NCBI RefSeq assembly: GCF_020911925.1
Contig: NZ_CP087134.1
Span: 4,402,001-4,466,000, forward strand
Origin: Flavobacterium cupriresistens
GTDB lineage: Bacteria; Bacteroidota; Bacteroidia; Flavobacteriales; Flavobacteriaceae
DNA length: 64,000 nucleotides
Reading direction: 5' to 3'
Made by a program: the position numbers and the translations under genes. This document shows positions 34,099-55,747 of this stretch, piece by piece (positions within the stretch are counted from its first letter, which is position 1; each line of letters starts with the position of its first letter). The notes below the pieces were generated by a model, which searched no databases, was not told the DNA's origin, and saw only the letters and a list, made by a program, of their open reading frames with translations.

Positions 34099-34106
34099 TT
34101 TGTTTA

Positions 34107-40552: not shown

Positions 40553-40566
40553 TGTAATCGATTACA
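40553..40566. promoter_or_regulatory. LacI-type operator at the GH28-susC-susD promoter
   Basis: TGTAATCGATTACA is a perfect 14-bp palindrome with the central CG of LacI/GalR-family sites. It directly follows the -7 box, covering the expected transcription start. Related sites occur at 40717, 54081 and 55734. Confidence 0.8.
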
Positions 40567-40598
40567 CGAAAGTAAAAAAATACTTTGATTGCACCAAA
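40567..40598 (-). promoter_or_regulatory. Promoter of the GH28-susC-susD operon
   Basis: On the minus strand TTTG (40595-40598), a 20-nt spacer and TACTTTCG (40567-40574, one base off TAnnTTTG) abut the operator. This gives a roadblock design like the transporter promoter at 55748-55778. Confidence 0.5.
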
Positions 40599-40716
40599 TT
40601 TATTTAGAAAAAATTTATATATTTAATTTTTATTACCAATTATATTTACACTTAATGTAAAAAAACGCATAATTTATTATCATTGTAGTACTGCAAATCG
40701 TTAAGATATAAATATT

Positions 40717-40730
40717 GGTAATCGATAACA
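40717..40730. promoter_or_regulatory. Variant LacI-type operator before the LacI gene
   Basis: GGTAATCGATAACA keeps the core TAATCGATnACA of the other three sites but not perfect symmetry. It lies 8 nt upstream of the -33 box of the LacI gene, so autoregulation is likely. Confidence 0.55.
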
Positions 40731-40738
40731 TTAAATAA

Positions 40739-40765
40739 TTGTTATACAAAAAAAATGTACTTTTG
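40739..40765 (+). promoter_or_regulatory. Promoter of the LacI-family gene
   Basis: TTG (40739-40741), 16 nt, then TACTTTTG (40758-40765). Transcription should start near 40772, 22 nt before the ATG. Confidence 0.55.
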
Positions 40766-40793
40766 TCCAGTAACTAACTTGAAAACCTATTGA

Positions 40794-41822
40794 ATGAGCG
40801 AAAAAATAACCATTTACGATATTGCCAAGAAATTGAATATCACCGCTGCAACCGTTTCCAGAGCGTTAAACAACAATCCGAAAATAAAAGAAAGCACCCG
40901 TGAGTTAGTACTCAAAACGGCAGCTTCGATGAATTACAAGCAAAACAAACTTGCTTTAGCCTTAAAAAGTGGCCGTAGTAATAATATAGGAGTAATTGTT
41001 CCGCGCATTGACAGCAACTTTTTTGCCTCGGTAATCAGAGGTATTGAAGAAGAATTACATCCGCATGGTTATCAGGTCATCATTTGCCAGACACATGAAG
41101 ATCCTAAAAGAGAAAGTGAAAACTTATATACGTTAATAGATGCTCAGGTAGATGGTATTTTAATGTCTGTTACCGATGTGGCAAACGAAAATACGGCTGC
41201 TTTTCAATATGTATTAAATAAAAATGTACCCTTAGTATTTTTTGACAGAAGTAAACATATAGATGGTGTCAGTTCTGTTACCATCAATGACTTTAAAGGT
41301 GGATACATGACCACCAAACATCTGATTGATGAAGGTTGCAAAGCTATTGCTCATTTTTCAGGAGACTTGTCTCTGGAAATCTTTAAAAACAGGTTTTTGG
41401 GCTACAAACAGGCTTTATCAGATCATGGAATGCCTTTTAATGAAGCGTATGTTATTCGTACAAAAAGTGCTTTAGATTCCGGTAAGGAAGCTGTAAATGT
41501 CTTATTACAATTAGAAACTCCGCCTGACGCTATCTTTTCATCGAGTGATTTTGCGGCTTTAGGGGCTATTCAGGTATTAAAAGAAAAAAATATTAGCATT
41601 CCGGAAGAATTTTGTGTGGCTGGTTTTAGTAATGAGCCTTTTACTAAGTTCATGGAATTGTCAATTACTTCTGTCGATCAGTCTCCTCTTGAAATGGGAA
41701 AAATGTCTGCTCGCGTTTTCTTAGAACAGGTAGATAAAACGGATACGATCAAAATTGAGAAAAAGGTTGTTTTGGCTCCGGAATTACATATTCGGAAATC
41801 GTCTTCCCGAACTGTCTCTTAG
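40794..41822 (+). CDS. LacI/GalR-family transcriptional regulator of pectin and uronate genes
   Basis: The 342-aa repressor or activator has the LacI HTH at residues 5-25 (TIYDIAKKLNITAATVSRAL), a hinge (LALALKSGRSNNIGVIVP) and a periplasmic-binding-protein-like ligand domain ending near the HIRK motif. It is divergent from the GH28-susC-susD operon. The palindrome TGTAATCGATTRCA occurs before that operon, before this gene in variant form, and before kduI and the uronate transporter. The ligand is probably an intracellular uronate intermediate such as 2-keto-3-deoxygluconate, by analogy with KdgR, but that is inference. Confidence 0.92.
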   Translation: MSEKITIYDIAKKLNITAATVSRALNNNPKIKESTRELVLKTAASMNYKQNKLALALKSGRSNNIGVIVPRIDSNFFASVIRGIEEELHPHGYQVIICQTHEDPKRESENLYTLIDAQVDGILMSVTDVANENTAAFQYVLNKNVPLVFFDRSKHIDGVSSVTINDFKGGYMTTKHLIDEGCKAIAHFSGDLSLEIFKNRFLGYKQALSDHGMPFNEAYVIRTKSALDSGKEAVNVLLQLETPPDAIFSSSDFAALGAIQVLKEKNISIPEEFCVAGFSNEPFTKFMELSITSVDQSPLEMGKMSARVFLEQVDKTDTIKIEKKVVLAPELHIRKSSSRTVS

Positions 41823-41844
41823 TGAAATACTCCTTTGAATAATA

Positions 41845-41880
41845 AACCCAATAACTTCAATGTTTATTGGGTTCTTTTTT
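41845..41880 (+). terminator. Terminator of the LacI gene
   Basis: AACCCAATAA and its complement TTATTGGGTT enclose a 9-nt loop and are followed by a T run. It lies 23 nt after the LacI stop. Confidence 0.85.
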
Positions 41881-41882
41881 TT

Positions 41883-41910
41883 AAAACATATAAGTGATGT
41901 AAGTTCATTG
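41883..41910. repeat. Solo copy of the ATAAGTGATGTAAG repeat
   Basis: This stretch carries the sequence ACATATAAGTGATGTAAG and then TTCATTG, also found at the ends of the element at 45418-45827. It marks the left part of the repeat-rich gap between LacI and the membrane AraC gene. Confidence 0.7.
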
Positions 41911-41951
41911 TAGTTATGGGTGTAATTACTTTGCGTTATTGGGGGCTTTAG

Positions 41952-42109
41952 TTGGGCGTAATTCATTATAACACATAGACTCATAGCTCACAAAGCCTAA
42001 AAAAAGACGTTTCACTTCAAATAAAACACATAAGATTATTTGAGAAAATCTTGATTTTCTTGAAACTCCTTAAACTGTACATTCTTAAACTATGTGTCTA
42101 TGTATTAAA
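41952..42109. repeat. Left copy of the inverted repeat around the AraC gene
   Basis: This copy starts TTGGGCGTAATTCATTATA and runs through a CATAGACTCATAG segment and CTTCACTTCAAATAAAACAC to CTATGTGTCTATG. Its inverse is found at 43401-43558. Between 41881 and 42264 I see no gene. Confidence 0.75.
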
Positions 42110-42229
42110 CAACTCTCAATAGAACTACATATGGTCAGTTAAAAATAAATGAGTTGCATTATGAATTTTTAAGCAATCATTTGAGCATAAATTTCATAAA
42201 TAAATTTCGCAACCAACAGCATAAAAAAT

Positions 42230-42237
42230 TACTTTTG
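42230..42237 (+). promoter_or_regulatory. -7 box before the membrane AraC gene
   Basis: TACTTTTG fits TAnnTTTG and lies 27 nt before the ATG at 42265. A -33 TTG is not clear. Confidence 0.4.
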
Positions 42238-42264
42238 TTACGTCAACGATAAGTTCCACTGCAC

Positions 42265-43359
42265 ATGAATATTAATCTATTAACGACTATTTTTATTGTG
42301 GGAGGATTGACTTTGTTGTCGTTTCTCAAATTGAGCAATGTTGATGCTGTAAATCGGAAGGCGAATATCTCTTTTGGAATTTTCTTGTTGCTTTGGTCGA
42401 GTTTCTGGTTAGATGAACTGCTCTTTGCGAGTCATTTAGAGAAAGGAGATTTTATCTTTTACATTATACGTTTTGTTCAATTATTTACCCCTATTCCTTT
42501 CTATTTCAGCATTGTATTTTATACCAGCCCGAATTACAAAATAACATTTCGTGACTTGCGATTTCTTGTTGTACCGCTGCTTTTTTTAATCCTTATCCTG
42601 TTCCGATCCTTGTTAGATAAAACACTTATCAATTTATGGATTAGTTGTGTTTCTCCACTTCACGCTTTGTATTATCTGCAATTATCATTTAGAAGAATAC
42701 TTAAACATCAAAAGGACATTGAGATTTTTTCATCCAACAAGGAATTAATTAGCCTCAATTGGATCAAGTACATTATCTACTGTTTGGTTCTGTCTGCTTT
42801 AGCAACCATTCTTTATACCATTTTAGTTCCAAATGGACCGTTAAATACCTATATCAATTTATTCTTTTTGGGCACGGTTTATTTTGTGGCTTATCATTCA
42901 ATCAAACAAAAGGAGTTGTTTCCGGTTGGGTATGTTCCCGAAAAAGAAACCGAAATTTTTACAGCGCAATACGAAGGTAATACTCCGAAAAACAAACTGT
43001 TTGATGATAAAGAATTAGCGCTTTACAAAAATAAGTTACTACAGTTAATGTCCGAAGAAAAACCTTACCTGGACACCGAACTTAATCTAATCAAATTGTC
43101 AGATATGCTGGGGCTTTCCGGACATCAACTCTCTTATATCATCAACAACGGATTTGATGAGAATTTTTTCTACTTCGTCAACAAATTCAGAGTTCAAAAA
43201 GCCAAAGAACTGCTCGAAAAACAGGATAATGATAAATTTACGATCTTAGCTGTTGGTTATGATGCGGGATTCAATTCTAAGACTTCTTTTAATACTACTT
43301 TCAAAAAAATGACCGGTGATACGCCTTCCGATTACCGAAAAAAGCATTCAAGACAATAA
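42265..43359 (+). CDS. Membrane-bound AraC-family regulator
   Basis: The protein of 364 aa has six or seven hydrophobic helices in the first 220 residues and a C-terminal AraC HTH pair (LNLIKLSDMLGLSGHQLSYI and a second half with FNSKTSFNTTFKKMTGDTPSDYRK). Such 7TM-like AraC proteins are common in Bacteroidota, where the membrane part is thought to sense a signal. The gene is enclosed by a ~158-bp inverted repeat. It may control the SDR/epimerase pair downstream, though this is only inferred from position. Confidence 0.88.
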   Translation: MNINLLTTIFIVGGLTLLSFLKLSNVDAVNRKANISFGIFLLLWSSFWLDELLFASHLEKGDFIFYIIRFVQLFTPIPFYFSIVFYTSPNYKITFRDLRFLVVPLLFLILILFRSLLDKTLINLWISCVSPLHALYYLQLSFRRILKHQKDIEIFSSNKELISLNWIKYIIYCLVLSALATILYTILVPNGPLNTYINLFFLGTVYFVAYHSIKQKELFPVGYVPEKETEIFTAQYEGNTPKNKLFDDKELALYKNKLLQLMSEEKPYLDTELNLIKLSDMLGLSGHQLSYIINNGFDENFFYFVNKFRVQKAKELLEKQDNDKFTILAVGYDAGFNSKTSFNTTFKKMTGDTPSDYRKKHSRQ

Positions 43360-43400
43360 ACTACTGCTGGCAACATTAGGGCCAATTCGGATCAATACTA

Positions 43401-43558
43401 TTTAACACATAGACACATAGATTTGGGATTTACAATTTATGCTGTTTAAATAAAAACATAGTTTTTACACATAGTCTTATGTGTTTTATTTGAAGTGAAG
43501 CGCCCTTTTATTAGCTATGCAAACTATGACTCTATGTGGTAAAATTAATTACACCCAA
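43401..43558. repeat. Right copy of the inverted repeat around the AraC gene
   Basis: Read on the minus strand it repeats the order of the left copy (41952-42109): TTGGGTGTAATTAATT, CATAGAGTCATAG, CTTCACTTCAAATAAAACAC, CTATGTGTCTATG. The interval 43360-43655 holds no gene besides this copy. Confidence 0.75.
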
Positions 43559-43655
43559 AGAGTTTACTATTAAACATTAAAATAGGTTCCGATAGATAAA
43601 TCCGAACCTTTTACCCAATTATCGAATCTACTTTTACACCTTAAATCACAAACAA

Positions 43656-44435
43656 ATGAAAGAGTTGTATACAGTAGTAACCGGAGCAAGTCAGGGTTTA
43701 GGAAAATCGTTTGCCTATGAACTTGCACAAAGAAATGAGAACTTAATTTTGGTGAGTTTGCCCAATCAAAACTTGCGGGAATTGTGTATGGAATTACAAA
43801 GTCGTTTTAAGATCAAAATCCACAGTTTTGAGATTGATCTGACCCGAAAAAGTAATGTGCTAAAATTAGCCAGTTGGATCAACGACAATTTCAACCTGAA
43901 AATGTTGATTAATAATGCCGGAATAGGCGGTACAAAAGAATTTGAGAAGGCTGGTGTACACTATCTCGACAATATTATTCAGCTTAATGTTATGGCCACT
44001 TCTTTGTTGACGCATCAGGTATTGCCCAATTTACAGCGTCACCATAAAGCCTATATTTTAAACATTTCCAGTCTTGCCGCCTTTTCTCCTATTGCCTACA
44101 AAACGGTTTATCCGGCCTCAAAGGCTTTTGTATACTCCTTTTCACGAGGTTTATATGAAGAACTAAAAGATACAAATGTTTTTGTGAGTGTTGTAAATCC
44201 TGGTCCGATGAAAACAAATGACGAGGTAACAAAGAGAATTGAAAGTCAGGGATTCTTTGCCAAAATGACCTCCTTAGATCCAGATCAGGTGGCCGTTTTT
44301 TGCCTGAACCGATTAGAGAAAAGAGATACTGTAATCATGGTCAATCAATTTAGCTGGCTTTTCCTGAAAATTTTGCCTGTTTGGTTCAAACTGCCAATGC
44401 TCTCCAATAAAATTAAAAAGGAACTAGCCTTATGA
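43656..44435 (+). CDS. Short-chain dehydrogenase/reductase (SDR)
   Basis: The product (259 aa) has the SDR cofactor motif TGASQGLGKS, the NNAGIGG block, the catalytic Ser in ISSLAAF, and the YPASKAF motif for Tyr-x-x-x-Lys. It resembles classical SDR proteins with an extra hydrophobic C-terminus (FSWLFLKILPVWFKLPML), which may attach it to the membrane. Its stop overlaps the start of the next gene by 4 nt (ATGA), so the two are translationally coupled. The substrate is unknown. Confidence 0.9.
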   Translation: MKELYTVVTGASQGLGKSFAYELAQRNENLILVSLPNQNLRELCMELQSRFKIKIHSFEIDLTRKSNVLKLASWINDNFNLKMLINNAGIGGTKEFEKAGVHYLDNIIQLNVMATSLLTHQVLPNLQRHHKAYILNISSLAAFSPIAYKTVYPASKAFVYSFSRGLYEELKDTNVFVSVVNPGPMKTNDEVTKRIESQGFFAKMTSLDPDQVAVFCLNRLEKRDTVIMVNQFSWLFLKILPVWFKLPMLSNKIKKELAL

Positions 44436-45397
44436 AAAGAGTTTTCATGACCGGAATAACCGGATTATTAGGAACCAATCTGGCCAACGAATTGTTACTT
44501 CAAAACTATCAGATCACCGCAGTCACTAGAGATCCTGATAAATATATTGGCAACCTAAATTCCAATCTAAAATTAATAAAATCTAATCTGCACGCTGATC
44601 ATACCGAATACCTTGAAAACATTGAAATCGTGATTCATATCGCTGCCGAAACGGCTACAAATCTTATTCGCTATTCCGATTATGAAAAGATAAATTATGA
44701 TGCCACAGTGTTATTATTTAAAAGCGCCCAAAAACAACAGGTGAAACAATTTATTTTCATTAGTACCGCCAACACTATTGGTTATGGCTCTCTTGCAAGC
44801 TTAGGAAATGAATCCCGAAAAATCAAAAGTCCCTTCTCGCAATTAGATTATGCAAAAACCAAACTTAAAGCAGAAGAATATGTATTGAAGAATGCAAAAA
44901 ACATGGCGGTAAAAATTTTAAATCCAACTTTTATGATTGGTCCCTACGACAGCAAGCCGAGTTCAGGGAAAATTATTCTGATGAGTTTAGGTAAAAAGGT
45001 TGTCTTTTATCCGCCCGGAGGCAAAAATTTTGTGGCTGTAAAAGATGTTGTCAGTGCTATCATTAATAGTTTTGAAAGTGGAAACACAGGAGATAAATAT
45101 CTTATTGCAGGAGAAAATCTCTCTTATAAACATTTTTTTGAACAACTCAGAACGCAGCAAAATCGAAAGCAATTTTTAATTCCTGTACCAAAATTTATAT
45201 TGATTGCCTTAGGGTTTATGGGAAGTACAGTCCGTTTTTTTTCAATACAAACAAGTCTAAGTCTCGTCAATACCCGAATCCTGTGTGTAAACAATTATTA
45301 CTGCAACAAAAAATCCAAAGAGCAACTCAAAATGCAATACAGCCCTATTGAAAATGCACTATTTGAAGCAGTAGACTATTTTAATTCAAAAAAGTAG
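44432..45397 (+). CDS. NAD-dependent epimerase/dehydratase family protein
   Basis: The 321-aa protein is an extended SDR with the GITGLLGTNLA nucleotide-binding motif, the HIAAETA block and the YAKTK form of Tyr-x-x-x-Lys. It belongs to the NAD-dependent epimerase/dehydratase/reductase class acting on sugars, steroids or flavonoid-like substrates. The gene overlaps the SDR gene by 4 nt. It is the last gene before a palindromic repeat element, which may limit transcription toward the convergent uxaA gene. Confidence 0.88.
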   Translation: MKRVFMTGITGLLGTNLANELLLQNYQITAVTRDPDKYIGNLNSNLKLIKSNLHADHTEYLENIEIVIHIAAETATNLIRYSDYEKINYDATVLLFKSAQKQQVKQFIFISTANTIGYGSLASLGNESRKIKSPFSQLDYAKTKLKAEEYVLKNAKNMAVKILNPTFMIGPYDSKPSSGKIILMSLGKKVVFYPPGGKNFVAVKDVVSAIINSFESGNTGDKYLIAGENLSYKHFFEQLRTQQNRKQFLIPVPKFILIALGFMGSTVRFFSIQTSLSLVNTRILCVNNYYCNKKSKEQLKMQYSPIENALFEAVDYFNSKK

Positions 45398-45417
45398 TTT
45401 TTTTAAAACCATATATT

Positions 45418-45441
45418 TTTAAACCATATAAGTGATGTAAG
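45418..45441. repeat. Left 24-bp end of a palindromic element
   Basis: The 24 bp, which include AAACCATATAAGTGATG, are repeated in inverse at 45804-45827. The left end lies 21 nt after the epimerase stop codon. Confidence 0.85.
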
Positions 45442-45803: not shown

Positions 45804-45827
45804 CTTACATCACTTATATGGTTTAAA
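45804..45827. repeat. Right 24-bp end of the palindromic element
   Basis: This is the inverse of 45418-45441. It finishes two bases before the uxaA stop codon, so the element fills the space between convergent genes. A partial copy lies at 41883-41910. Confidence 0.85.
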
Positions 45828-45829
45828 CT

Positions 45830-47452
45830 CTACAAAGAAACTCCGCGTTTCCAAGGAATAAAATCGTTTTGGTTTAGAATTGCCGCTTTGGTTTTGATGG
45901 TACCGCTGGCTACGTCAATGATAAATTCTAACATTTCGTCGGCCATTTCATCAATTGTTTTTTCACCTGTAATAATTCCTCCGGTGTCGATATCGATAAT
46001 GTCAGACATTTTTTTCGCCAATTCTGTGTTGGATGAAATTTTTACAACGGGTGCGATTGGGTTTCCTGTTGGTGTTCCTAAACCCGTGGTAAACAAAACC
46101 ATATTGGCTCCGGATCCTACCATTGCAGTTGTACATTCTACATCATTTCCGGGAGTGCAAAGTAAATTTAATCCCGGTTTTGTAATGTATTCTCCGTAGT
46201 CCGAAACCCCAACTATTGGTGAGGTTCCTCCTTTTTTGGCAGCTCCTGCAGATTTCATGGCATCTGTAATCAAACCGTCTTTTATATTACCCGGAGATGG
46301 ATTCATATCAAACCCTGAACCTGCATCCACAACCGTTTTTTCATACCATTGCATCAAATCCAAGAAACGTTTTCCTCCCTCTTCTTCTACACAACGGTTG
46401 ACCAACTCTTGCTCTACACCACATAATTCCGGAAACTCAGAAAGAATGGTAGTTCCTCCTAAAGCAGCCAACAAATCGGAAGTAACTCCTAATGTGGGAT
46501 TCGCTGAGATTCCAGAGAACCCGTCAGAACCACCACATTCCAAACCAATTTTCAATTTTGATAAGGGTGCCGGTGTTCGCTCTAGTTCATTTGCTTTTTT
46601 GATTTCTTCAAAAGTATCTTTCACAACACTGCTAAGCATGGCTTCAATCGTCCCTATTTGTTGCTGATCGTAAATTAAAACCGGTTTTTTACTGTCCGGA
46701 TTAATTTCATTCAATGCATCTTTAAAAATTTGAATTTGAAGATTTTGACAACCTAAACTCAAAACCGTAGCACCAGCCACATTCGGATTGTTAACATATC
46801 CGGCCAATAACTTAGCCAGACTATGCGAATCCTGACGAATTCCGCCACAACCACCCTGATGCGTGATAAATTTTACTTCTATATTGTTGAATAAATCCGG
46901 ATTGCTTGCTTTTCCCTCCTTGCTATCCACTCCGCTTTCTTTACTTACTAAAGAGCGAAGTAAAAGCTGATAGTCATTTTCTTTAGGTTTCATTAATTCC
47001 TTTTCGAAAATATCTTTTAAGATCTCGATATTCCTGTTTTCACAAAAAACCAAAGGAAAAAACAACCATACATTTTCAGTTCCAACCTGTCCGTCTTCTC
47101 TGTGGTAACCCAGAAAAGTTCTGTCTTTCCATTTGTCAATATTGGGTGCGGTCCAACCAATCGTTTCCGTTTTGCCTGTTACCTTATCACTTTCGTGTTT
47201 TACGTTTAATGTAGAAAGCAAGTCTCCTTTTTCTATTCTTTCACTTGACTTTCCTACCAAAACACCGTACATAATAATCCTGTCGCCTGTATTAAGCGGA
47301 GTTAAAGCAATTTTGTGTTTGGCTTTTACATCAGAACCAATTGCAATCGTTTCTCCTTCAAAATGAATCAGTTCCCCTGCTGTCAGGTTTACTAAAGCGA
47401 CCGCAACATTATCGGTAGGATTAACTTTTATTATTTTTTTTTGCGTTTCCAT
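45830..47452 (-). CDS. uxaA: Altronate dehydratase
   Basis: UxaA converts D-altronate to 2-keto-3-deoxygluconate by dehydration, in the galacturonate route. The 540-aa protein combines a small N-terminal SAF-like domain (VNPTDNVAVALVNLTAGE) and the large C-terminal domain with TFLGYHREDGQVGTEN, THQGGCGGIRQDS, ECGGSDGFSG and LLCTPGNDVECTTAMV. The Cys-rich motifs suit an iron-dependent enzyme. The single-polypeptide length matches the family. Its start is 2 nt from uxaB, and it is the last gene of the uronate operon. Confidence 0.95.
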   Translation of the reverse strand: METQKKIIKVNPTDNVAVALVNLTAGELIHFEGETIAIGSDVKAKHKIALTPLNTGDRIIMYGVLVGKSSERIEKGDLLSTLNVKHESDKVTGKTETIGWTAPNIDKWKDRTFLGYHREDGQVGTENVWLFFPLVFCENRNIEILKDIFEKELMKPKENDYQLLLRSLVSKESGVDSKEGKASNPDLFNNIEVKFITHQGGCGGIRQDSHSLAKLLAGYVNNPNVAGATVLSLGCQNLQIQIFKDALNEINPDSKKPVLIYDQQQIGTIEAMLSSVVKDTFEEIKKANELERTPAPLSKLKIGLECGGSDGFSGISANPTLGVTSDLLAALGGTTILSEFPELCGVEQELVNRCVEEEGGKRFLDLMQWYEKTVVDAGSGFDMNPSPGNIKDGLITDAMKSAGAAKKGGTSPIVGVSDYGEYITKPGLNLLCTPGNDVECTTAMVGSGANMVLFTTGLGTPTGNPIAPVVKISSNTELAKKMSDIIDIDTGGIITGEKTIDEMADEMLEFIIDVASGTIKTKAAILNQNDFIPWKRGVSL

Positions 47453-47454
47453 AA

Positions 47455-48921
47455 CTATTGTATGTAAGTTCCTGAATTTATCTGTTTTTTAAAATTGGTA
47501 AAACCTTGTTCGATACCCTTTTCATCTATTTCTTTTAAGGCTTCAGCAATAGTTTCTGTCAAAGATGGAATCGTAGTCAAATCTTCATCCCAGAAACTTT
47601 TATTTTGCAAAGTGAGTGTTGCAATTTCATTATAGTCATTTGATTTCCAGACTTCATTAAAAAAAGAAATAATATCTTCACTGTCGCTTATTGGCAGATT
47701 TTGTCCATTCCAGGTTCCTTTATAAAAACGAATTAAGCAGGCAAATGCATACGTTAAATGAACCGGCAACTTTTTATGAATAGCGACATACTCCGTCAAA
47801 CTTGGTAAAACACGTACTTTGAATTTAGAAATCGAGTTTAGGGCAATCGAAGACAATAAATGTTTGATAAAAGGATTTCTGAAACGATCTAAAATTTCCT
47901 CGGCAAAACTGGCCAGTTCGGCTGGATCCATAGCCAAGGTTTCATTGATTTCTTCGAAAACGGCTTTGTTTACAAATTCACCCGTAAAGGCATTATCTAC
48001 CGTTTCTTTAACTGTTTCGTTTCCGTAAAGCAACGAGAAAGGTACCATAGCGGTATGGGCTCCATTTAAAATCCTCACTTTTCGGGTGCGATACGGCTGC
48101 ATATCCTTGACGATCTTTACGTCTAAATCGGTCTTATCAAATGGAAGTTTTGCCTTCAGCGCATCATCACCTTCAATTACCCACAAGAAGAAACTTTCCG
48201 CACTTACAATCAAATCATCTTTATAAGACAACTGACTGTTGTATGCTTCGATTTGATCCCTTGGATAACCCGGAACAATTCGATCTACCAAAGTATTATG
48301 GAAGGAGCAGTTGTTGATGACCCAAAAAACAAAGTCCTGCTCCAATTTCCATTCAATAGCATATTTTAGAACAATTTCTTTTAACGTATCCGAATTGTAA
48401 TTGATCAGTTCACAGGGAATAATGGTCAATCCTTTCGAAGCTTCTCCATTAAAATGCTTAAATCTTTCGTGTAAAAGCACCGTTAATTTCGCCGGAAAAG
48501 ACACCGGAGGCTGCATTGTCGGAAGATCAGATGCGATATATTCTATACCGGCTTCGGTTGTATTGGATATAATAAAAGCCAATTCTTCTTCTCTGGCCAA
48601 AGCCAAAAAATCTTGAAAAGAAGCATACGGATCAATTGCTTTTACAATATTGGTAATCAATTCTTTCTCCTGAATTTCCTGCCCTTTTTTAACCCCTTTC
48701 ATAAATAAAGTATACAAACCGTCCTGTGCATTAATCATCGGAACCAAGCCTTTATCGATCGGTTGTACCACAGCAATACCGGCATTAAAATCAGCCTTCT
48801 GATTGAGCTTTTGAATAGCAAATTCTACAAAAGCCCTTAAAAAATTACCCTCTCCAAATTGCACAATCTTGATTGGAAGTTTCGCTGTTAACTTCGCATT
48901 TGATCTGTTTATTTTTTCCAT
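47455..48921 (-). CDS. uxaB: Tagaturonate reductase (altronate oxidoreductase)
   Basis: UxaB reduces D-tagaturonate to D-altronate with NADH. The 488-aa protein belongs to the mannitol-dehydrogenase-like family. The N-terminal cofactor motif is seen in VQFGEGNFLRAFVEF, a middle segment has IVSAESFFLWVIEG, and NGAHTAMVPFSLLYG lies in the catalytic domain. It begins after a gap of about 208 nt from the aldolase gene. The gap shows no clear promoter, though a run of T and A at 49050-49100 is AT-rich. Confidence 0.94.
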   Translation of the reverse strand: MEKINRSNAKLTAKLPIKIVQFGEGNFLRAFVEFAIQKLNQKADFNAGIAVVQPIDKGLVPMINAQDGLYTLFMKGVKKGQEIQEKELITNIVKAIDPYASFQDFLALAREEELAFIISNTTEAGIEYIASDLPTMQPPVSFPAKLTVLLHERFKHFNGEASKGLTIIPCELINYNSDTLKEIVLKYAIEWKLEQDFVFWVINNCSFHNTLVDRIVPGYPRDQIEAYNSQLSYKDDLIVSAESFFLWVIEGDDALKAKLPFDKTDLDVKIVKDMQPYRTRKVRILNGAHTAMVPFSLLYGNETVKETVDNAFTGEFVNKAVFEEINETLAMDPAELASFAEEILDRFRNPFIKHLLSSIALNSISKFKVRVLPSLTEYVAIHKKLPVHLTYAFACLIRFYKGTWNGQNLPISDSEDIISFFNEVWKSNDYNEIATLTLQNKSFWDEDLTTIPSLTETIAEALKEIDEKGIEQGFTNFKKQINSGTYIQ

Positions 48922-49129
48922 TTTAAATTCTTTATCACTTTATCAATTCCCCTAACAATCTCCTAGTCTGATTTTTACATTTTTAAATTGTAAAAGAAAC
49001 ATCACACCTGAGTGAGAAATAAATCTTGTCGTGAGGATTCACAAGATTTATTTTGCAAGTGTAATGTTCTATTACAATAACTAAAACTCCAAAAAACGAC
49101 TCGTCGAACAGGGAACTGTTATAATTGTA

Positions 49130-49801
49130 CTATTTATTTTTTATCTTTTTGATGATCGCCAGAACCTCACTTACTTTGTTTTTTAAACCCTCAAAGTCAT
49201 TCTTATCAAGCATCTCTTTTGAGATTAACTGTGACCCCAAGCCAACACAAACCGCACCGGCATCGAGCCACGAAGTCAGACTTTCTACGGTTGGTAAAAC
49301 ACCTCCTGTGGGCATAATACTTGTCCAGGGACAAGGGCCTTTTATTGCTTTTATAAATTCCGGTCCATAGATATCTCCCGGGAATAATTTTACGATTTCG
49401 CATCCTAATTCTTCGGCTCTGGCAATCTCGGTAAGTGTCCCGCAACCCGGTGACCATAATACTTTACGACGATTACAGACTATTGCAATATCTTCTCTAA
49501 AAACAGGAGTCACAATAAAATTAGCTCCTAACTGCAGGTATAAAGACGTTGCTGCTGCGTCTGTAACCGATCCTACGCCCAACATCATTCCCGGTAATTC
49601 AGCCAATGCATATTTATTTAAAGCCCCAAATACCTCAAAGGCAAAGTCGCCGCGACTTGTAAATTCCATTAACCTTGCACCACCATCATAACAAGCTTTT
49701 AACACTTTTTTACTCACTTCGATATCCGTATGAAAAAAGAGCGGAACCATACCGTTTTCTTTCATTTGCGAAGCCACTTCAATTCTTGAATATTTTGCCA
49801 T
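49130..49801 (-). CDS. eda: 2-keto-3-deoxy-6-phosphogluconate aldolase
   Basis: Eda cleaves KDPG to pyruvate and glyceraldehyde 3-phosphate by a Schiff base. The 223-aa protein has the class I aldolase blocks: LMEFTSRGDF with the Glu position, FIVTPVFRED, SPGCGTLTEI, and CEIVKLFPGDIYG with the active Lys. It is slightly longer than the enteric enzyme (213 aa). It lies 12 nt after the kdgK gene, so the two encode successive steps in one transcript. Confidence 0.95.
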   Translation of the reverse strand: MAKYSRIEVASQMKENGMVPLFFHTDIEVSKKVLKACYDGGARLMEFTSRGDFAFEVFGALNKYALAELPGMMLGVGSVTDAAATSLYLQLGANFIVTPVFREDIAIVCNRRKVLWSPGCGTLTEIARAEELGCEIVKLFPGDIYGPEFIKAIKGPCPWTSIMPTGGVLPTVESLTSWLDAGAVCVGLGSQLISKEMLDKNDFEGLKNKVSEVLAIIKKIKNK

Positions 49802-49813
49802 TTTTTATTTTAA

Positions 49814-50836
49814 TTATCTTGATACCAAACCTGTAGCATCACCATCAACCATATTCTCTACTTCTTTTAATGTCACTAAATTGTAATCTCCCGAAATAGT
49901 GTGTTTTAAACAACAAGCAGCTACTGCAAAATCTAAAGCTCTCTGGTTGTTGTTCTGATATTCGCATAGACCATAAATCAATCCGCCCATAAAGGCATCA
50001 CCACTACCAACTCGATCTACAACAGGAGTTACTTCTTTGACAGCGGCATTGTAAATCGCTTTTCCATCAAACAAAATCCCTCCAATTCTTTGGTGAGAGG
50101 CACTAACCGAATAACGGAGTGTGGTCGCTGCAATTTTTAAATTCGGAATAAAATCAAAGAGTTTCGTATACAAAGCAGGAAGCGTTTTCTCATCCTGGTA
50201 GTTTGGATTTACTTTTGGAATTCCTAACATAAAATACGCGGTATCAATATCTCCCAAAATCACATTGCTGTATTTTAGTAACTCGGGCATAACATCACTC
50301 GGCGTTTTACCATACTGCCATAATTTGGATCTGTAGTTTAAATCACATGAAATCGTGATTCCCAATTTATGTGCTACTTTAATCGCTTCCAGACAAGCTT
50401 CGGCAGCAGTTTTAGAGATGGCAGGTGTAATTCCGCTCCAGTGAAACCAAGTTGCACCTTCTAATACTTTTTCCCAGTCAATACTTCCTTTTTCAATGGT
50501 TGCCATTGAACTGTGTGCTCGATCATAAACCACATTGCTTCCACGAGTTCCGGCTCCGGTTTCCAGAAAATAGATTCCCAGACGTTCTCCTCCAAAAATT
50601 ATATTTTTTGACTCGACGTTCATTTTTCGCATTTCTTTTAATGCTGAACCTCCTATTTCATTTTCAGGTAAACGGGTTACAAATTCTGCATTCAGACCGT
50701 AATTCGCCAGTGAAACGCAAACATTAAATTCGCCTCCTCCATAAGAAGCTCCAAAAGCTTTAGCTTGCGAAAAACGCAAATGCCGCTCTGTCGAAAGCCG
50801 TAACATTATTTCTCCGAATGCAACTATTTTATTCAT
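49814..50836 (-). CDS. kdgK: 2-keto-3-deoxygluconate kinase (PfkB family)
   Basis: KdgK phosphorylates 2-keto-3-deoxygluconate to KDPG. The 340-aa protein has the PfkB N-terminus (FGEIMLRLSTERHLRFSQA), a conserved YGGGEFNV motif, and a C-terminal ATP-binding motif DRVGSGDAFMGGLIYG with the catalytic Asp. Position between uxaC and eda and the substrate pathway support the name. An intergenic gap of about 169 nt upstream holds a dispersed repeat at 50851-50963. Confidence 0.93.
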   Translation of the reverse strand: MNKIVAFGEIMLRLSTERHLRFSQAKAFGASYGGGEFNVCVSLANYGLNAEFVTRLPENEIGGSALKEMRKMNVESKNIIFGGERLGIYFLETGAGTRGSNVVYDRAHSSMATIEKGSIDWEKVLEGATWFHWSGITPAISKTAAEACLEAIKVAHKLGITISCDLNYRSKLWQYGKTPSDVMPELLKYSNVILGDIDTAYFMLGIPKVNPNYQDEKTLPALYTKLFDFIPNLKIAATTLRYSVSASHQRIGGILFDGKAIYNAAVKEVTPVVDRVGSGDAFMGGLIYGLCEYQNNNQRALDFAVAACCLKHTISGDYNLVTLKEVENMVDGDATGLVSR

Positions 50837-50850
50837 ATTATTCTATTATT

Positions 50851-50963
50851 TTACCGCAGATAACTTCTTTTTTTTGCCACAGATTAGCAGAATTAAAAGG
50901 ATTTAAAACTTTGTGAACCTGGTGTAAATCTTTGCGAACCTTGCGTAAACCCTTGCGGTTATT
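50851..50963. repeat. Dispersed repeat in the uxaC-kdgK gap
   Basis: ACCGCAGATAAC at the left and TTGCGGTTATT at the right bracket a GCCACAGATTAGC-type piece (50876-50903), which is the same family as 21246-21272, and CTTTGCGAACC-like copies. It separates two genes of the uronate operon. Confidence 0.6.
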
Positions 50964-51005
50964 CTTTTTTCTAAATAAAACTTATTCTCTTAATAATCTA
51001 AAAAC

Positions 51006-52412
51006 TTAAAATTTAAAATATTCTTTTGCATTGTTATAAGAGATGTCCTGTACCAATTTTCCAATCCATTCCATATCATTTGGAAGTTCTCCTCTTTTGA
51101 TTTCGTCACCTAAAAGATTACAAAGAATACGTCTGAAATACTCATGTCTCGGGAAAGACAAAAAGCTTCTTGAATCGGTTAACATTCCAACGAAACAGCT
51201 AATTAATCCCATATTTGAAAGGGCATTCAATTGTTTTGTCATTCCGTCCTTCTGGTCCAGAAACCACCAACCTGATCCAAATTGTACTTTTCCTTTACTA
51301 CTTCCGTCATTAAAGTTTCCAATCATGGTTGCCATGACTTCATTGTCTGCCGGATTTAAATTATAGATAATTGTTTTAGTCAATTTATCTTTGCTGTCCA
51401 AAGCATTTAAAAAAGAAGATAGTTTTTGCGCTTGCGGATAATCTCCAATTGAATCCCAACCCGTATCCGGACCTAAAATTTTGTGCATGCGTGCATTATT
51501 GTTACGTAAAGCACCTAAGTGAAACTGCTGTACCCATCCTTCCTCATGATACATTTCTGCTAAAAAAAGCAAGATGGCACTTTGGAATTTTAAAGCTTCT
51601 TCCGGAGTAATAATTCTGTTTTCTCTTTTCTTTTTGAAAATCGTATTGACCTCCGTTTCTGTAAATTCTTCAAAATAGATCTGATCTAATCCATGATCGC
51701 TTAGTTTACAGCCATTTTGACTAAAAAACTTGATTCGTTTTTTTAAAGCGCTACATAAATCGGAATAGGTATTTATCGCCACACCGGACACATCCCCTAA
51801 TGTGTCCAGATAGGCATTATAACCATCGTTTGAAATTAGAATGGCTTTATCAGGCCTGAAAGCCGTACTCATTTTAGTCCCAATCGGATTCTTAGCTAAT
51901 TTTTGATGAAACTCCAGCGTATCAATAGGATCTTCGGTTGTACACACTAGTTCAGCATTTACTTTTTTAAGCAAATTCTGCGTGCTGTAACTTTCAGAGT
52001 TTATTTTTTCTGTCGTTTCGATATAGATCTTTTCTGCTGATTTTTCATTCAACAAATCATAAATATCAAAATAACGTGCTAACTCCAAATGTGTCCAGTG
52101 GTACAAAGGATTTCGCATGGTGTACGGAACGGTTTTCGCCCAGTTTATAAATTTATCTTTATCTGAAGCGTTTCCTGTAATAAATTCTTCCTTTATCCCT
52201 AAAGTACGCATGGCGCGCCATTTATAATGATCCCCATTGATCCATACTTTTGTAATTGTATCAAAAATGGTATTATCTGCAATATGTTGTGGAGACAAAT
52301 GATTGTGGTAATCAATTATCGATTGATTTTTTGAGTAATTATGATACAATTCTTCCGCGAATTTATTTTCAAGCAAAAAATTATCATTTATGAATGTGGT
52401 ATTTGAACTCAT
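51006..52412 (-). CDS. uxaC: Glucuronate/galacturonate isomerase
   Basis: UxaC converts D-galacturonate to D-tagaturonate and D-glucuronate to D-fructuronate. The 468-aa length matches the family. Blocks such as SIIDYHNHLSPQHIADN, ITEDPIDTLE-like TTEDPIDTLEFH, and FHLGALRNNN and VGMLTDSRSFLSFPRHEYFRR with its metal and substrate residues are in place. It lies 21 nt after kduD and directly uses galacturonate released by GH28 and GH105 relatives. Confidence 0.95.
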   Translation of the reverse strand: MSSNTTFINDNFLLENKFAEELYHNYSKNQSIIDYHNHLSPQHIADNTIFDTITKVWINGDHYKWRAMRTLGIKEEFITGNASDKDKFINWAKTVPYTMRNPLYHWTHLELARYFDIYDLLNEKSAEKIYIETTEKINSESYSTQNLLKKVNAELVCTTEDPIDTLEFHQKLAKNPIGTKMSTAFRPDKAILISNDGYNAYLDTLGDVSGVAINTYSDLCSALKKRIKFFSQNGCKLSDHGLDQIYFEEFTETEVNTIFKKKRENRIITPEEALKFQSAILLFLAEMYHEEGWVQQFHLGALRNNNARMHKILGPDTGWDSIGDYPQAQKLSSFLNALDSKDKLTKTIIYNLNPADNEVMATMIGNFNDGSSKGKVQFGSGWWFLDQKDGMTKQLNALSNMGLISCFVGMLTDSRSFLSFPRHEYFRRILCNLLGDEIKRGELPNDMEWIGKLVQDISYNNAKEYFKF

Positions 52413-52433
52413 ACTTTTTTATCTAATTAAAAA

Positions 52434-53225
52434 TTATTCGTTAGCCGGTTTACCAATAGTAGCAAGGATTCCACCGTCAACATACAAAATATGACCGTTG
52501 ACAAAATCACTCGCTTTAGAAGACAAAAATATCGCTGCTCCTGCCAGATCATCTGCATCTCCCCATTTCGCAGCAGGCGTTCTGTTAATTATAAAATCAT
52601 TAAAGGGATGCCCTTCTACTCTAATCGGTTTGGTTTGTTCTGTTGCAAAATACCCCGGACCAATACCGTTAATCTGAACATTGTATTTTGCCCATTCGGT
52701 AGCCATATTTTTGGTTAGCATTTTCAAACCACCTTTGGCAGCGGCATAAGCCCCTACTGTATTTCGGCCTAATTCACTCATCATGGAGCAAATGTTGATT
52801 ATTTTCCCTTGTCTTCGTTCGATCATTCCTTTGGCAACGTGTTTAGAAACAATAAACGGACTTACTAAATCGAGGTCAATTACTTCCTTAAAATCGGCCA
52901 CTTCCATTTCGATTAGCGGAATCCTTTTGATAATTCCGGCATTGTTAATTAAAATATCAATTGGTCCTACTTCACTTTGAATTTTTTGAACTGCAGCACT
53001 AACTTCCTCCTCTACGGTCACATTAAATCTATAACCAACGGCTTTAATTCCTTCGTTTTGAAGTTCTTTTACCGCATCATCAATTTTTTGTTGCGAAGAA
53101 TTACCGTTTACAACAATTGTTGCTCCGGCTTTTCCTAATCCTTTTGCCATTGCCATTCCCAGTCCGTGTGTACTTCCTGTAATCAAGGCTACTTTTCCTT
53201 CTATATCAAATAATGAATTTGCCAT
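52434..53225 (-). CDS. kduD: 2-dehydro-3-deoxy-D-gluconate 5-dehydrogenase
   Basis: KduD reduces 2,5-diketo-3-deoxygluconate to 2-keto-3-deoxygluconate with NADH. The 263-aa protein is a classical SDR: TGSTHGLGMAMA at the cofactor site, NNAGIIKRIP, catalytic Ser147, and Tyr160/Lys164 in GAYAAAKGGL. It lies 4 nt downstream of kduI, and the pairing with KduI makes the assignment firm. It handles unsaturated galacturonate products. Confidence 0.95.
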   Translation of the reverse strand: MANSLFDIEGKVALITGSTHGLGMAMAKGLGKAGATIVVNGNSSQQKIDDAVKELQNEGIKAVGYRFNVTVEEEVSAAVQKIQSEVGPIDILINNAGIIKRIPLIEMEVADFKEVIDLDLVSPFIVSKHVAKGMIERRQGKIINICSMMSELGRNTVGAYAAAKGGLKMLTKNMATEWAKYNVQINGIGPGYFATEQTKPIRVEGHPFNDFIINRTPAAKWGDADDLAGAAIFLSSKASDFVNGHILYVDGGILATIGKPANE

Positions 53226-53229
53226 ATTC

Positions 53230-54066
53230 TTATCTTAAATCTGTGATTTTACAAACGTCCATGTCTCCGTAATCTAAATTTTCGCCCGCCATTCCCCAGA
53301 TAAAAGTATAATTACTTGTTCCTGAACCGGAATGAATAGACCATGGCGGAGAAATTACAGCCTGATGATTGTTCATCCAGATATGTCTGGTTTCCTGCGG
53401 TTGCCCCATAAAATGACAAACGGCCTGATTTTCGGGAATATCCAAATAGAAATAAACCTCCATTCTGCGATCGTGAACGTGCGCCGGCATGGTATTCCAA
53501 ACACTACCCGTTCTTAACTCCGTCATCCCCATTTGCAATTGACAAGTGGTTACAACCCCTCCGATAATCATTTGATTTACGGTGCGATGATTCGCAGTTT
53601 CCACTGTGCCTAATTCTAATTTCTTGGCTTCTGCCAAGCTCACTTTTACCGTTGGATAATTCGTATGAGCCGGTGCTGAGTTGATGTAAAATTTAGCCGG
53701 ATTTTTGCGGTCATCGCTTTTAAAAACAACCTCTTTATTACCACTACCGATATACAAAGCATCTTTAAATCCCAATGAATGAGACACTCCATCAACAACG
53801 ATTGAACCGCTGCCTCCTACATTAATAATTCCCATTTCTCTGCGTTCTAAAAAATAACCCGCTTTAAGAGGATCAATAGTTTCCAATTGCAAATCACTTA
53901 AAGGAACTGCTGAACCCGTAATATATCTATCGTAATGCGAGTAGACCAATACAATCTCATCTTCCTGCATTAGGTCATCAATTAAAAATTCTTCTCTTAA
54001 TTGCTGTGTGTCGTATTTTTTAACTGCTTCCGGGCTTGACGCGTATCTTGAACTGTGTTTTGTCAT
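53230..54066 (-). CDS. kduI: 5-keto-4-deoxyuronate isomerase
   Basis: KduI isomerises 5-keto-4-deoxyuronate, the spontaneous form of the unsaturated uronate released by GH105, to 2,5-diketo-3-deoxygluconate. The 278-aa length is standard. The zinc site is intact: His196 and His198 in PAHVHDRR, Glu203 in MEVYF and His245 in PWSIHSG, at the same numbers as in the enteric enzyme. A LacI-type operator lies 15 nt before its start, so it may have its own promoter inside the uronate gene cluster. Confidence 0.96.
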   Translation of the reverse strand: MTKHSSRYASSPEAVKKYDTQQLREEFLIDDLMQEDEIVLVYSHYDRYITGSAVPLSDLQLETIDPLKAGYFLERREMGIINVGGSGSIVVDGVSHSLGFKDALYIGSGNKEVVFKSDDRKNPAKFYINSAPAHTNYPTVKVSLAEAKKLELGTVETANHRTVNQMIIGGVVTTCQLQMGMTELRTGSVWNTMPAHVHDRRMEVYFYLDIPENQAVCHFMGQPQETRHIWMNNHQAVISPPWSIHSGSGTSNYTFIWGMAGENLDYGDMDVCKITDLR

Positions 54067-54080
54067 AACTTTAAATTTAA

Positions 54081-54094
54081 TGTAATCGATTGCA
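54081..54094. promoter_or_regulatory. LacI-type operator before kduI
   Basis: TGTAATCGATTGCA differs from the perfect palindrome at 40553 by one base. It directly abuts a -7-like box (minus strand TAATTTTA, 54095-54102) and lies 15 nt before the kduI ATG. Confidence 0.7.
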
Positions 54095-54152
54095 TAAAAT
54101 TAAAATAATATTCTAAAATTATCCTTTAAACCGTTTAAAAGTTTTTTTTATT

Positions 54153-55598
54153 TTATAAATCTGTAATTGGACTGTATTTTGGCACTAGCGTTTTCATTAC
54201 CAACCAACCTGTTAAGTAACAAACGGCACAAATTGAAAAAATGATAAAATAACCTGATTCAATTCCGTGAAAGCCCATAAAGGCCATATTGCTTTCTTTG
54301 GCATAATCAAACAACATTCCCGATCCTTTATTAATGAAAGTAGAACCTACTCCACCTGCTAAACCGCCAATTCCGGTAATTGTTGCAATTGCTTTTTTAG
54401 GAAACATATCACCAACAGTTGTAAAGATATTTGCCGACCAGGACTGGTGTGCAGCTCCTGCAATACCAATTATGATTACGGGAATCCAATAACTTATATG
54501 TCCTAAAGGTTGTGCGATTAAAGCTAAGAGCGGGAAAAAAGCAAAAATTAACATTGCTTTCATTCTGCCTTCGTAGGGATTCATTCCTTTTTTCTCCACA
54601 AAATAAGTGGGCAGCCAACCTCCAATAATGGATAGTAAGGTGATCATGTACAATACAAATAAGGGCAAAGCAGCCTGTGTTGAATCCATTCCGTAAACAG
54701 AGCTCAAATAAGCTGGGGTCCAGAATAAGAAAAACCACCAAACACCATCGGTCATAAATTTACCAAATGCAAAAGCCCAGGTTTGTTTGTATTTAAAACA
54801 AGCGGCAAGAGACACTTTAGTTGTTGTTTCAGGAACATATCCAGCCATTTTGCTGTCTGCGACATCATCTTGTTGGATGTACTCCAATTCTGCAGCACTT
54901 ACTTTTGGGTGTTTTTCGGGTTTATCATACATAAACACCCAAAAACCCATCCACACAAAACCAAGAGCCCCAATGATAATAAAAGCCATTTCCCAACCAA
55001 AAGACTCTGCTATAAAAGGAATTGATATTGGCGCCGCCAAGGCTCCTACTGTTGCTCCGGCATTAAATATACTGGTAGAAAAGGCTCTGTCTTTTTTAGG
55101 AAAGTATTCTGCGGTTGTTTTTATGGCCGCCGGAAAATTTCCTGCTTCTCCAATAGCCAGCACAAAACGGGCAAAAATAAACAAGCACACACTTACGTTA
55201 ATCACCATCCCGGTATCCTTTACCGTACTGATGATTTCTTTTGCTCTTTCAAAACCAACAAACCATTCACCTGCTATGATTCCGGCTGTTGCAATTCCGC
55301 AAAAGGCATGCAAGCAGGCCCCAAAAGACCAAATACCAATAGCCCATAAAAAACCTTTTTTAGTATCCAACCAGTCTACAAATCTTCCTGCAAACAAAAG
55401 TGATACCGCATAAAAAATCGAAAATAACGCGGTGATATTACCATAGTCATTGTTTGTCCAATGAAATTCCGGTGCAATAAAATCACTCCACGTTAAAGAA
55501 AGTACTTGTCTGTCTAAATAATTTATAGTAGTTGCAAAAAATAGCAGGGCGCATATACTCCAACGATAATTTCCAACTGTGGTTTTGGTTTGGCTCAT
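54153..55598 (-). CDS. exuT: ExuT-like hexuronate transporter (MFS, anion:cation symporter)
   Basis: The 481-aa protein has about 12 hydrophobic helices. It shows MFS family signs: an N-terminal helix with YLDRQVLSLTW, FAGRFVDWLDTKKGFLWAIG, and AIGEAGNFPAAIKTTAEYFP, the anion:cation symporter (ExuT/GudP) pattern. It should carry galacturonate, glucuronate or related uronates into the cytosol. It is longer than enteric ExuT, with an inserted loop near residue 105-135. A LacI-type operator and promoter lie upstream, and KduI and the catabolic genes follow on the same strand. Confidence 0.93.
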   Translation of the reverse strand: MSQTKTTVGNYRWSICALLFFATTINYLDRQVLSLTWSDFIAPEFHWTNNDYGNITALFSIFYAVSLLFAGRFVDWLDTKKGFLWAIGIWSFGACLHAFCGIATAGIIAGEWFVGFERAKEIISTVKDTGMVINVSVCLFIFARFVLAIGEAGNFPAAIKTTAEYFPKKDRAFSTSIFNAGATVGALAAPISIPFIAESFGWEMAFIIIGALGFVWMGFWVFMYDKPEKHPKVSAAELEYIQQDDVADSKMAGYVPETTTKVSLAACFKYKQTWAFAFGKFMTDGVWWFFLFWTPAYLSSVYGMDSTQAALPLFVLYMITLLSIIGGWLPTYFVEKKGMNPYEGRMKAMLIFAFFPLLALIAQPLGHISYWIPVIIIGIAGAAHQSWSANIFTTVGDMFPKKAIATITGIGGLAGGVGSTFINKGSGMLFDYAKESNMAFMGFHGIESGYFIIFSICAVCYLTGWLVMKTLVPKYSPITDL

Positions 55599-55733
55599 AG
55601 TAACTGAATTTGTATGTTTTATGGTAATGGTTAATTCTTAAAATTTTACAACTCTCGACATTTCAACTTCATCAATTATGCGCAATACAACTTCTTTGTT
55701 CAATGGATCAAAACCAGAATAGAAACAAAAAAA

Positions 55734-55747
55734 TGTAATCGATTGCA
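55734..55747. promoter_or_regulatory. LacI-type operator before the uronate transporter
   Basis: TGTAATCGATTGCA has the same sequence as the site at 54081-54094. It directly abuts the -7 box at 55748 and covers the expected start of transcription. Confidence 0.75.

Follow-up and report, generated by a model that had tools for sequence, protein, structure and literature searches.

In proteobacteria, pectin depolymerisation and uronate catabolism are tuned by cytosolic 2-keto-3-deoxygluconate (KDG) through KdgR, a member of the IclR family, and in Bacillus subtilis the LacI-family proteins KdgR and ExuR control KDG and hexuronate genes. The global carbon regulator CcpA works with HPr, and the consensus of its cre sites is TG..AA.CG.TT..CA. 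A GntR-family repressor of alginate catabolism in Zobellia galactanivorans was reportedly described by Dudek in 2020 (cited in PMC9296495). For Bacteroides, excerpts of two reports list predicted LacI-family uronate regulators, KdgR (BT0487), UxaR (BT0824), and UxuR (BT1434) (PMC3878776, PMC4052901), and the excerpted text of the first adds that ManR and AraR join cytosolic catabolism to SusCD operons (PMC3878776). The present analysis concerns a 64,000-nt stretch of Flavobacterium cupriresistens (bases 4402001-4466000 of the single-contig 5.74-Mb genome, NZ_CP087134.1; hereafter, the window), in which copies of a 14-bp palindrome, TGTAATCGATTRCA, lie before genes of pectin capture and uronate catabolism close to a gene for a LacI-family protein. 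The most probable reading, to which a probability of about 0.88 is assigned, is that this protein acts as a repressor on TGTAATCGATTRCA, would jointly control pectin capture and uronate catabolism, and would be freed by a uronate intermediate.

A pattern scan of the window found three exact matches to TGTAATCGATTRCA, at 40553, 54081, and 55734, and the site at 40717, GGTAATCGATAACA, differs from it by two mismatches. Conservation of these sites was assessed in a close-relative set, consisting of the 80 best LacI loci (Flavobacterium, and records labelled Flavobacteriaceae or [Flexibacter]), many of which overlap the genus sample described below; 79 of the 80 could be tested for the two sites between the GH28 and lacI genes, one having too little upstream DNA. 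The sites are as follows.

40553-40566, unstranded: op1, a perfect palindromic operator, TGTAATCGATTACA, 45 bp upstream of GH28; exact in 79 of 79 testable close-relative loci
40717-40730, unstranded: op2, a weaker operator, GGTAATCGATAACA, 63 bp upstream of lacI and 164 bp from op1
54081-54094, unstranded: kduI operator, TGTAATCGATTGCA, 15 bp upstream of kduI; exact in 77 of 77 testable close-relative loci
55734-55747, unstranded: transporter operator, TGTAATCGATTGCA, 136 bp upstream of the MFS gene

Across the whole genome, TGTAATCGATTRCA occurs exactly at only four places, three inside the window and one outside, which precede GH28-susC-susD, kduI, the uronate MFS transporter gene, and a gene for a secreted PL1-CBM77 pectate lyase. 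Allowing one mismatch added two places, compared with none for a reversed-pattern control. The fourth exact place (1269872) lies 65 bp upstream of the gene for an 861-aa protein with Pectate_lyase_4 and CBM77 domains and a type IX sorting tail; because it is unlinked (about 3.2 Mb from the window along the contig) and lay outside the scope of the original prediction, it constitutes an independent pectin match. The original prediction had named the four window sites, which stand where it placed them, and had proposed that a single LacI-type regulon links capture to catabolism; the unlinked PL1-CBM77 gene, the conservation of the kduI and GH28 sites, and the co-occurrence of regulator and site described below strengthen that proposal, and the random spread across the genome that would have counted against it was not borne out. 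At lower stringency the signal fades. Two mismatches gave 132 strand-hits in the genome, compared with 91 for the reversed-pattern control, so that 40717 is not significant alone. The window at up to three mismatches is unremarkable (24 matches, compared with a shuffle mean of 15.9; 9 of 100 shuffles reach 24), and the evidence for the operator is carried by near-exact matches. Extension of the regulon by weaker sites was dropped, since the two-mismatch matches, of which about the first 100 places are listed, were near background (132 compared with 91), as was extension by a composite search for a -7 box joined to the operator, which at up to one mismatch returned these four genome places only.

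Profile matches to Pfam and NCBIfam models agree with the functions first proposed for the genes behind the sites (GH28-susC-susD, LacI, KduI, and MFS). The assignments are listed below.

40794-41822, plus strand: LacI-family regulator, 342 aa (Pfam PF00356 with PF00532/PF13377)
39069-40508, minus strand: GH28; closest NCBIfam model alpha-D-galacturonidase BT4155, below cut-off
35927-39028, minus strand: SusC, TonB-dependent receptor (Pfam/NCBIfam)
34296-35915, minus strand: SusD (Pfam/NCBIfam)
53230-54066, minus strand: kduI, 5-dehydro-4-deoxy-D-glucuronate isomerase (NCBIfam NF002091, above cut-off)
52434-53225, minus strand: short-chain dehydrogenase (SDR) of gluconate 5-dehydrogenase / KduD type (NCBIfam)
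51006-52412, minus strand: uxaC, uronate isomerase (Pfam/NCBIfam)
49814-50836, minus strand: PfkB-family kinase, probable KDG kinase (below NCBIfam cut-offs)
49130-49801, minus strand: eda, KDPG aldolase (NF005499, above cut-off)
47455-48921, minus strand: uxaB, tagaturonate reductase (NF002969, above cut-off)
45830-47452, minus strand: uxaA, altronate dehydratase type (Pfam)
54153-55598, minus strand: MFS transporter of the D-galactonate/hexuronate-type subfamily (TIGR00893, below cut-off)

The same targets recur in relatives. In the close-relative set, the exact site was found in the kduI promoter of 77 of 77 loci and in the GH28 promoter of 78 of 78 (the gene was not found in three and two of the 80, respectively). 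A genus sample of 61 genomes was also searched, in which an ortholog was defined as a LacI protein of at least 65% identity (two are cut by contig ends). None of 92 exact sites in the ortholog-bearing genomes fell within a called coding frame, and one had no frame within 400 bp. The stretches retrieved cover nearly all of the listed sites, leaving out two of the three places in G044 and all but one in G049 and G014; the 90 places used for the offset counts below also leave out the four places of ortholog-free genomes, the one without a frame within 400 bp, and one near a contig end. The nearest genes were those for the MFS transporter (16 places, including the window's), GH28 (15, with the divergent lacI shared), kduI (14), PL1-CBM77 (11), the SusC of a second polysaccharide utilisation locus (PUL) (11), a secreted PL1 (9), a secreted GH28 (9), another SusC (2), uxaC (1), a PL7-type alginate lyase (1), and a 155-aa frame with no assignment (2). 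Across 20 family stretches (36 places), genes of these classes again stand near the site in other genera. These findings suggest that the wiring is probably common to many Flavobacterium relatives. F. cupriresistens itself lacks a near match to the relatives' site-bearing SusC and secreted GH28 (best identities 38% and 35%), and the secreted PL1 of about 458 aa was not searched for. In one relative, an operator and a near -7 box stand 48 bp before the alginate lyase gene (L099:5060-5953, genome G060). Two operators nearly touch in L130:5984-6177 (G025) and L239:6510-6540 (G213); one of those in L130 has a mismatch, and a further operator lies 163 bp away in that locus.

In the proposed mechanism, the LacI protein (40794-41822) would bind the 14-bp palindrome as a repressor and, sitting at about -4 to +10, right after TAnnTTTG, would block RNA polymerase at the start. 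The predicted targets are GH28-susC-susD (perhaps including the genes that follow), kduI-kduD-uxaC-kdgK-eda-uxaB-uxaA as a putative operon, the uronate MFS transporter gene, and the unlinked PL1-CBM77 gene. During pectin degradation, the repressor would be freed by a uronate intermediate in the cytosol, most likely KDG, and capture, import, and catabolism would rise together. KDG is favored because the galacturonate and unsaturated-uronate branches meet there, and the odds that it is the effector are put at about even. The same repressor might instead respond to galacturonate, tagaturonate, or an unsaturated-uronate intermediate (DKI/DKII), an alternative with somewhat less than an even chance: GH28 and the MFS transporter deliver galacturonate, and kduI is among the best-conserved targets. 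Against it, both branches belong to the regulon and meet at KDG, and the product of the PL7-type alginate lyase, which has the site in one relative, reaches KDG too by known routes, hinting at a signal common to pectin and alginate; neither point is decisive.

The promoter geometry bears on whether the protein blocks or activates transcription. Directly upstream of three of the operators, and downstream of op2, the following boxes were located.

40567-40574, minus strand: -7 box TACTTTCG, abutting op1 and facing GH28
54095-54102, minus strand: -7 box TAATTTTA, directly next to the kduI operator; many relatives have TAATTTTG
55748-55755, minus strand: -7 box TATATTTG, abutting the transporter operator
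40758-40765, plus strand: probable lacI -7 box TACTTTTG, 27 bp downstream of op2, within a conserved ATGTAtTTTTG block in the alignment of the 80 loci

Read toward the nearest gene, TAnnTTTG fills the eight bases before the operator at 62 of 90 genus places, and a relaxed form, TAnnTTYR, chosen after seeing the sites, stands directly before it at 81 of 90. Counts at other offsets average 0.11 (strict) and 0.38 (relaxed), with a maximum of 5. The invariance of the 14-bp core follows from the exact search by construction, whereas the adjacency of the box does not, because the flanks were not selected. The box adjoins the operator at all 16 MFS and all 15 GH28 genus sites, and in its relaxed form in 77 of 77 kduI and 78 of 78 GH28 close-relative promoters. 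At op1 of 79 close-relative loci it reads TACTTTCG in 53, TATTTTCG in 20, and TAATTTCG in 6. In F. johnsoniae, an excerpted report places the -7 element at -12 to -5 (PMC6847099); since the operator adjoins this box, it would occupy about -4 to +10 and, by analogy with the F. johnsoniae starts, should lie over the start of transcription at the target promoters. Its overlap with the core promoter and the predicted start suggests repression, as a bound protein there should stop RNA polymerase. The form of the site is also that of its family: LacI-family operators are typically even palindromes with a central CG, according to the excerpted text of PMC4052901, and TGTAATCGATTACA is an even palindrome with a central CG, upstream of a start codon.

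It is improbable, in the light of this geometry, that the LacI protein, in serving the same regulon, activates some of it or has a mixed effect there, via op2 for instance. That site does lie upstream of the probable lacI -7 box, at about -53 to -40, a position compatible with activation, and differs in this from the op1, kduI, and transporter sites; at most other promoters the operator covers the predicted start, which suits blocking.

All 79 testable close-relative loci have an op2 equivalent 62-71 bp before lacI, in the forms GGTAATCGATAACA (69), TGTAATCGATAACA (8), and AGTAATCGATAACA (2), and in all 79 it is an asymmetric variant ending in TAACA. Among the genus lacI loci, it is present at up to two mismatches in 11 of 15 (window included) and at three mismatches in a twelfth; it is missing in three deeper-branching loci. 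Although insignificant alone, op2 is supported by this conservation before lacI. Autoregulation is common, though not universal, in the LacI/GalR family; through 40717 it may be less simple than the original prediction implied, as the site is conserved before lacI yet stands upstream of the probable -7 box and does not cover it. op2 may serve plain autorepression, exert weak feedback, or assist op1 as a helper operator.

The spacing of op1 and op2 in the 79 close-relative loci is 164 bp in 66, 163 bp in 9, and 165 bp in 4, and the stretch between them has a mean identity of 0.81 (operators included) and a length standard deviation of 0.40; the stretch from op2 to lacI is shorter and more variable in length (standard deviation 1.43). 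In a set of 34 more distant loci, orthologous or homologous, exactly two sites (at up to two mismatches) occur within 450 bp before lacI in 10, at a spacing of 174-262 bp, which makes the fixed spacing a feature of close relatives. Helical phasing over these 10 loci and the 164-bp spacing was not significant at 10.5 bp (fraction of random sets 0.18) or with the period free between 10.0 and 11.4 (0.10). The spacer length could also be held by other conserved blocks; an everted element, TTACAnTTAATGnAAAAA, and an AT-rich block are both conserved between op1 and op2 (40570-40717). A more ambitious joint reading would make one LacI-type protein the master repressor of the whole pectin economy, from secreted lyases and outer-membrane capture to the transporter and both uronate branches, through a -7/operator module, with op1 and the weak op2 forming a loop or graded switch that sets the regulator level against PUL expression and is spaced more widely in other genera. 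Taken as a whole this is doubtful, and the odds of a loop or graded switch are lowered by the lack of a kept spacing outside close relatives and of significant helical phasing.

The regulator itself has a LacI helix-turn-helix domain (PF00356) and a periplasmic-binding-protein-like sensor (PF00532, PF13377), all above cut-off, which place it in the LacI/GalR family; Pfam shows LacI-family domains only, and none of IclR type. The closest solved structures are of CcpA (3oqm, 1rzr). Its predicted link to the palindrome comes from co-occurrence, proximity, and the recognition helix. In the genus sample, the exact site is present in 18 of 18 genomes with the ortholog, compared with 4 of 43 without it, and in a family sample of 199 genomes from 198 genera (ortholog defined at 50% identity or more; numbers counted from table identities) in 28 of 32, compared with 8 of 167 (Fisher 5.6e-12 and 8.7e-23, with relatedness ignored). 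The comparison of related genomes, also proposed with the original prediction, therefore shows the site tracking the regulator. The reversed pattern matched in 4 of 61 genus and 7 of 199 family genomes, close to the rate of the site in ortholog-free genomes. The four ortholog-free genus genomes have one place each, three of them within coding frames; of the eight ortholog-free family genomes with the site, seven were examined, and the site falls within a frame of 803-816 aa in four, within another frame in one, upstream of an unidentified frame in one, and where no frame is called in one. The four long frames holding the exact 14-mer are those of L168, L169, L172, and L180. At the level of the class, 19 of 247 genomes have the exact site and 7 match the reversed-pattern control; of the 19, five belong to the genus and all five have the ortholog, and the remaining 14 each carry the site at one or two places. 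Regulator and exact site were found together in 27 of the 198 sampled genera, and F. johnsoniae also carries both.

Of the 52 distinct homologs listed with 51% identity or more, 50 keep the recognition helix (T/S)AA(T/S)VSRALN. Two homologs of 48% carry TASTVSRAL; the exact site is absent from their genomes, and no site at up to two mismatches was found in their loci. In L334 and L335 (G271 and G469, of another family of the class), the 48% gene lies within the order kduI-kduD-lacI-uxaC-uxaB, so the link of the LacI protein to uronate catabolism may predate the operator. In L122:5560-7860 (G060), two lacI orthologs lie in tandem, 86% and 81% identical to the window's protein, and G109 and G071 have two non-adjacent orthologs each.

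That another regulator binds the palindrome (a LacI paralog, the neighboring AraC protein, or the hybrid two-component system [HTCS] protein), lacI being a mere neighbor, is very improbable. The genome does hold seven LacI-family genes, and the window an AraC gene at 42265 and an HTCS gene at 1166; against this, the site tracks this ortholog across the 61 genus and 199 family genomes, its shape is that expected for a LacI-family protein, and the AraC gene has no match in the 18 relatives' loci compared (a comparison that left aside the two dehydrogenase genes next to it). Chance, or AT-rich decoration of start regions, was rejected as practically negligible on the genome-wide counts and cross-genome co-occurrence: matches with two to three mismatches are indeed near background, but the four exact genome matches precede pectin or uronate genes with none in the control, and the site is mostly absent from relatives without the regulator.

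Several observations weigh against the proposed regulon or temper it. Related genomes are not independent, so that the Fisher values are overstated, and the 50% ortholog threshold was set after seeing the gap to matches of 42-45%. Four ortholog-bearing family genomes lack the exact site; two of these have a one-mismatch site before lacI, and one has two-mismatch sites, one of them before kduI. G074, with a family ortholog and the helix kept, has no site at up to two mismatches in 19.9 kb, and G278, a genome from a different family of the order whose 60% homolog shows a changed recognition helix, has no exact site and none at up to two mismatches in 19 kb. A 39% homolog (L212, G461) has SAATVSRAL in a genome without the exact site; together with G074, it indicates that the helix is not a sufficient mark. 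The seven LacI-family genes count here as well. The -7 box adjoins only 10 of the 14 genus kduI sites. At 7 of the 36 family places the nearest frame is unidentified, and L230:14219 lies within a called frame. The two one-mismatch places in the genome lie between a ribose-phosphate pyrophosphokinase (prs-type) gene and the gene for ribosomal protein L25, and within a CoA-ligase gene; outside pectin genes, both are treated as chance. The prs/L25 site reads TGAAATCGATTACA (G000:C1:1180788; L021:8789). Finally, in Gramella flava, pectin raised hexuronate genes and not the susC-susD of the pectin PUL, according to an excerpted report (PMC5306329), and co-induction is therefore not to be assumed everywhere.

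One string of pectin genes behind susD has no site of its own.

25120-33867, minus strand: downstream gene string behind susD, on the same strand as GH28-susC-susD (Pfam/NCBIfam)
Members, minus strand: BD-FAE esterase (32926-33867), DUF4861, two GH105/GH88-type, PL10-CE8 (27401-29410), GH28, and GDSL esterase

As originally stated, the window scan found no site at up to one mismatch in front of the esterase, DUF4861, GH105, or PL10-CE8 genes. The conclusion drawn at that time, that these genes may be regulated otherwise, appears doubtful. They follow GH28 on the same strand, and in five relatives the esterase gene lies directly behind the operator-bearing GH28 with no susCD between them. In the 428-bp gap between susD and the esterase gene, no minus-strand terminator was called, by a scan whose yield was below that of its shuffles. 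As judged from sequence, read-through from the op1 promoter into the esterase-GH105-PL10/CE8 genes would be likelier than separate control. The gap also has one TAnnTTTG box, at 34273 (0.3 expected by chance), and a promoter of the string's own is possible on that account. A 136-bp repeat in two tandem copies that are 79% alike occupies 33972-34243, much of the gap.

Between lacI and uxaA (42265-45397) are the AraC regulator gene and two short-chain/epimerase-type dehydrogenase genes. A separate PUL, at 1166-15831, has its own HTCS gene (1166-5326), SusCD, one GH88-type enzyme, and two GH2-type enzymes.

The control of PULs in Flavobacteriaceae, which are major degraders of plant and algal matter, appears from the literature to be less well documented than in gut Bacteroides. 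In the present case, operator, regulon, and promoter geometry can be deduced from sequence, and new pectin genes can be found by the operator, as the unlinked PL1-CBM77 gene was. Genetic tools exist for F. johnsoniae. The -7/operator arrangement suggests an inducible promoter module for flavobacteria.

In comparison with known systems, the original prediction was right that KdgR-like control is known in proteobacteria; its view of a LacI-family equivalent as less described needs amending, as LacI-family KdgR, UxaR, and UxuR had already been predicted in Bacteroides (PMC3878776 and PMC4052901, in excerpt). Overall, its observation is confirmed and strengthened, and its interpretation is partly supported: right for the most part, it needs amending as to earlier work, the genes that lack a site, and the lacI site. 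Among the listed results of searches of open-licence PMC papers, neither this operator nor a LacI pectin regulon in Flavobacteriaceae was found described. Proteobacterial KdgR shares the pairing of pathways and differs in being an unrelated protein, of the IclR family, with another operator. Bacillus subtilis KdgR and ExuR share LacI control, without an outer-membrane capture system. The Zobellia repressor is likewise from the Flavobacteriaceae and concerned with a uronic-acid polysaccharide, although it reportedly belongs to the GntR family and acts on alginate. CcpA, with cre, is the nearest solved relative and has a similar operator style, but is global, whereas the present protein looks local. 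In the excerpted descriptions, Bacteroides KdgR, UxaR, and UxuR resemble the present regulator in family and in their role in glucuronate and galacturonate catabolism (PMC3878776, PMC4052901), and the KdgR regulon there even includes a few periplasmic or extracellular genes (PMC3878776). These regulons consist mainly of cytosolic enzymes and inner-membrane transporters, with HTCS proteins on the rhamnogalacturonan PULs (PMC3878776, in excerpt), whereas here, compared by published description, one operator serves SusCD, secreted lyases, the transporter, and catabolism; no HTCS gene lies beside GH28-susCD, where the neighboring regulator is LacI and the window's HTCS heads a different PUL. Bacteroides ManR and AraR are also monosaccharide-type cytosolic regulators over a SusC/SusD operon, but are of the GntR and NrtR families and act on mannose and arabinose (PMC3878776, excerpted text). 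The kind of system is known from Bacteroides; what is new here is the operator, the regulon, its spread, and the fusion of operator and promoter.

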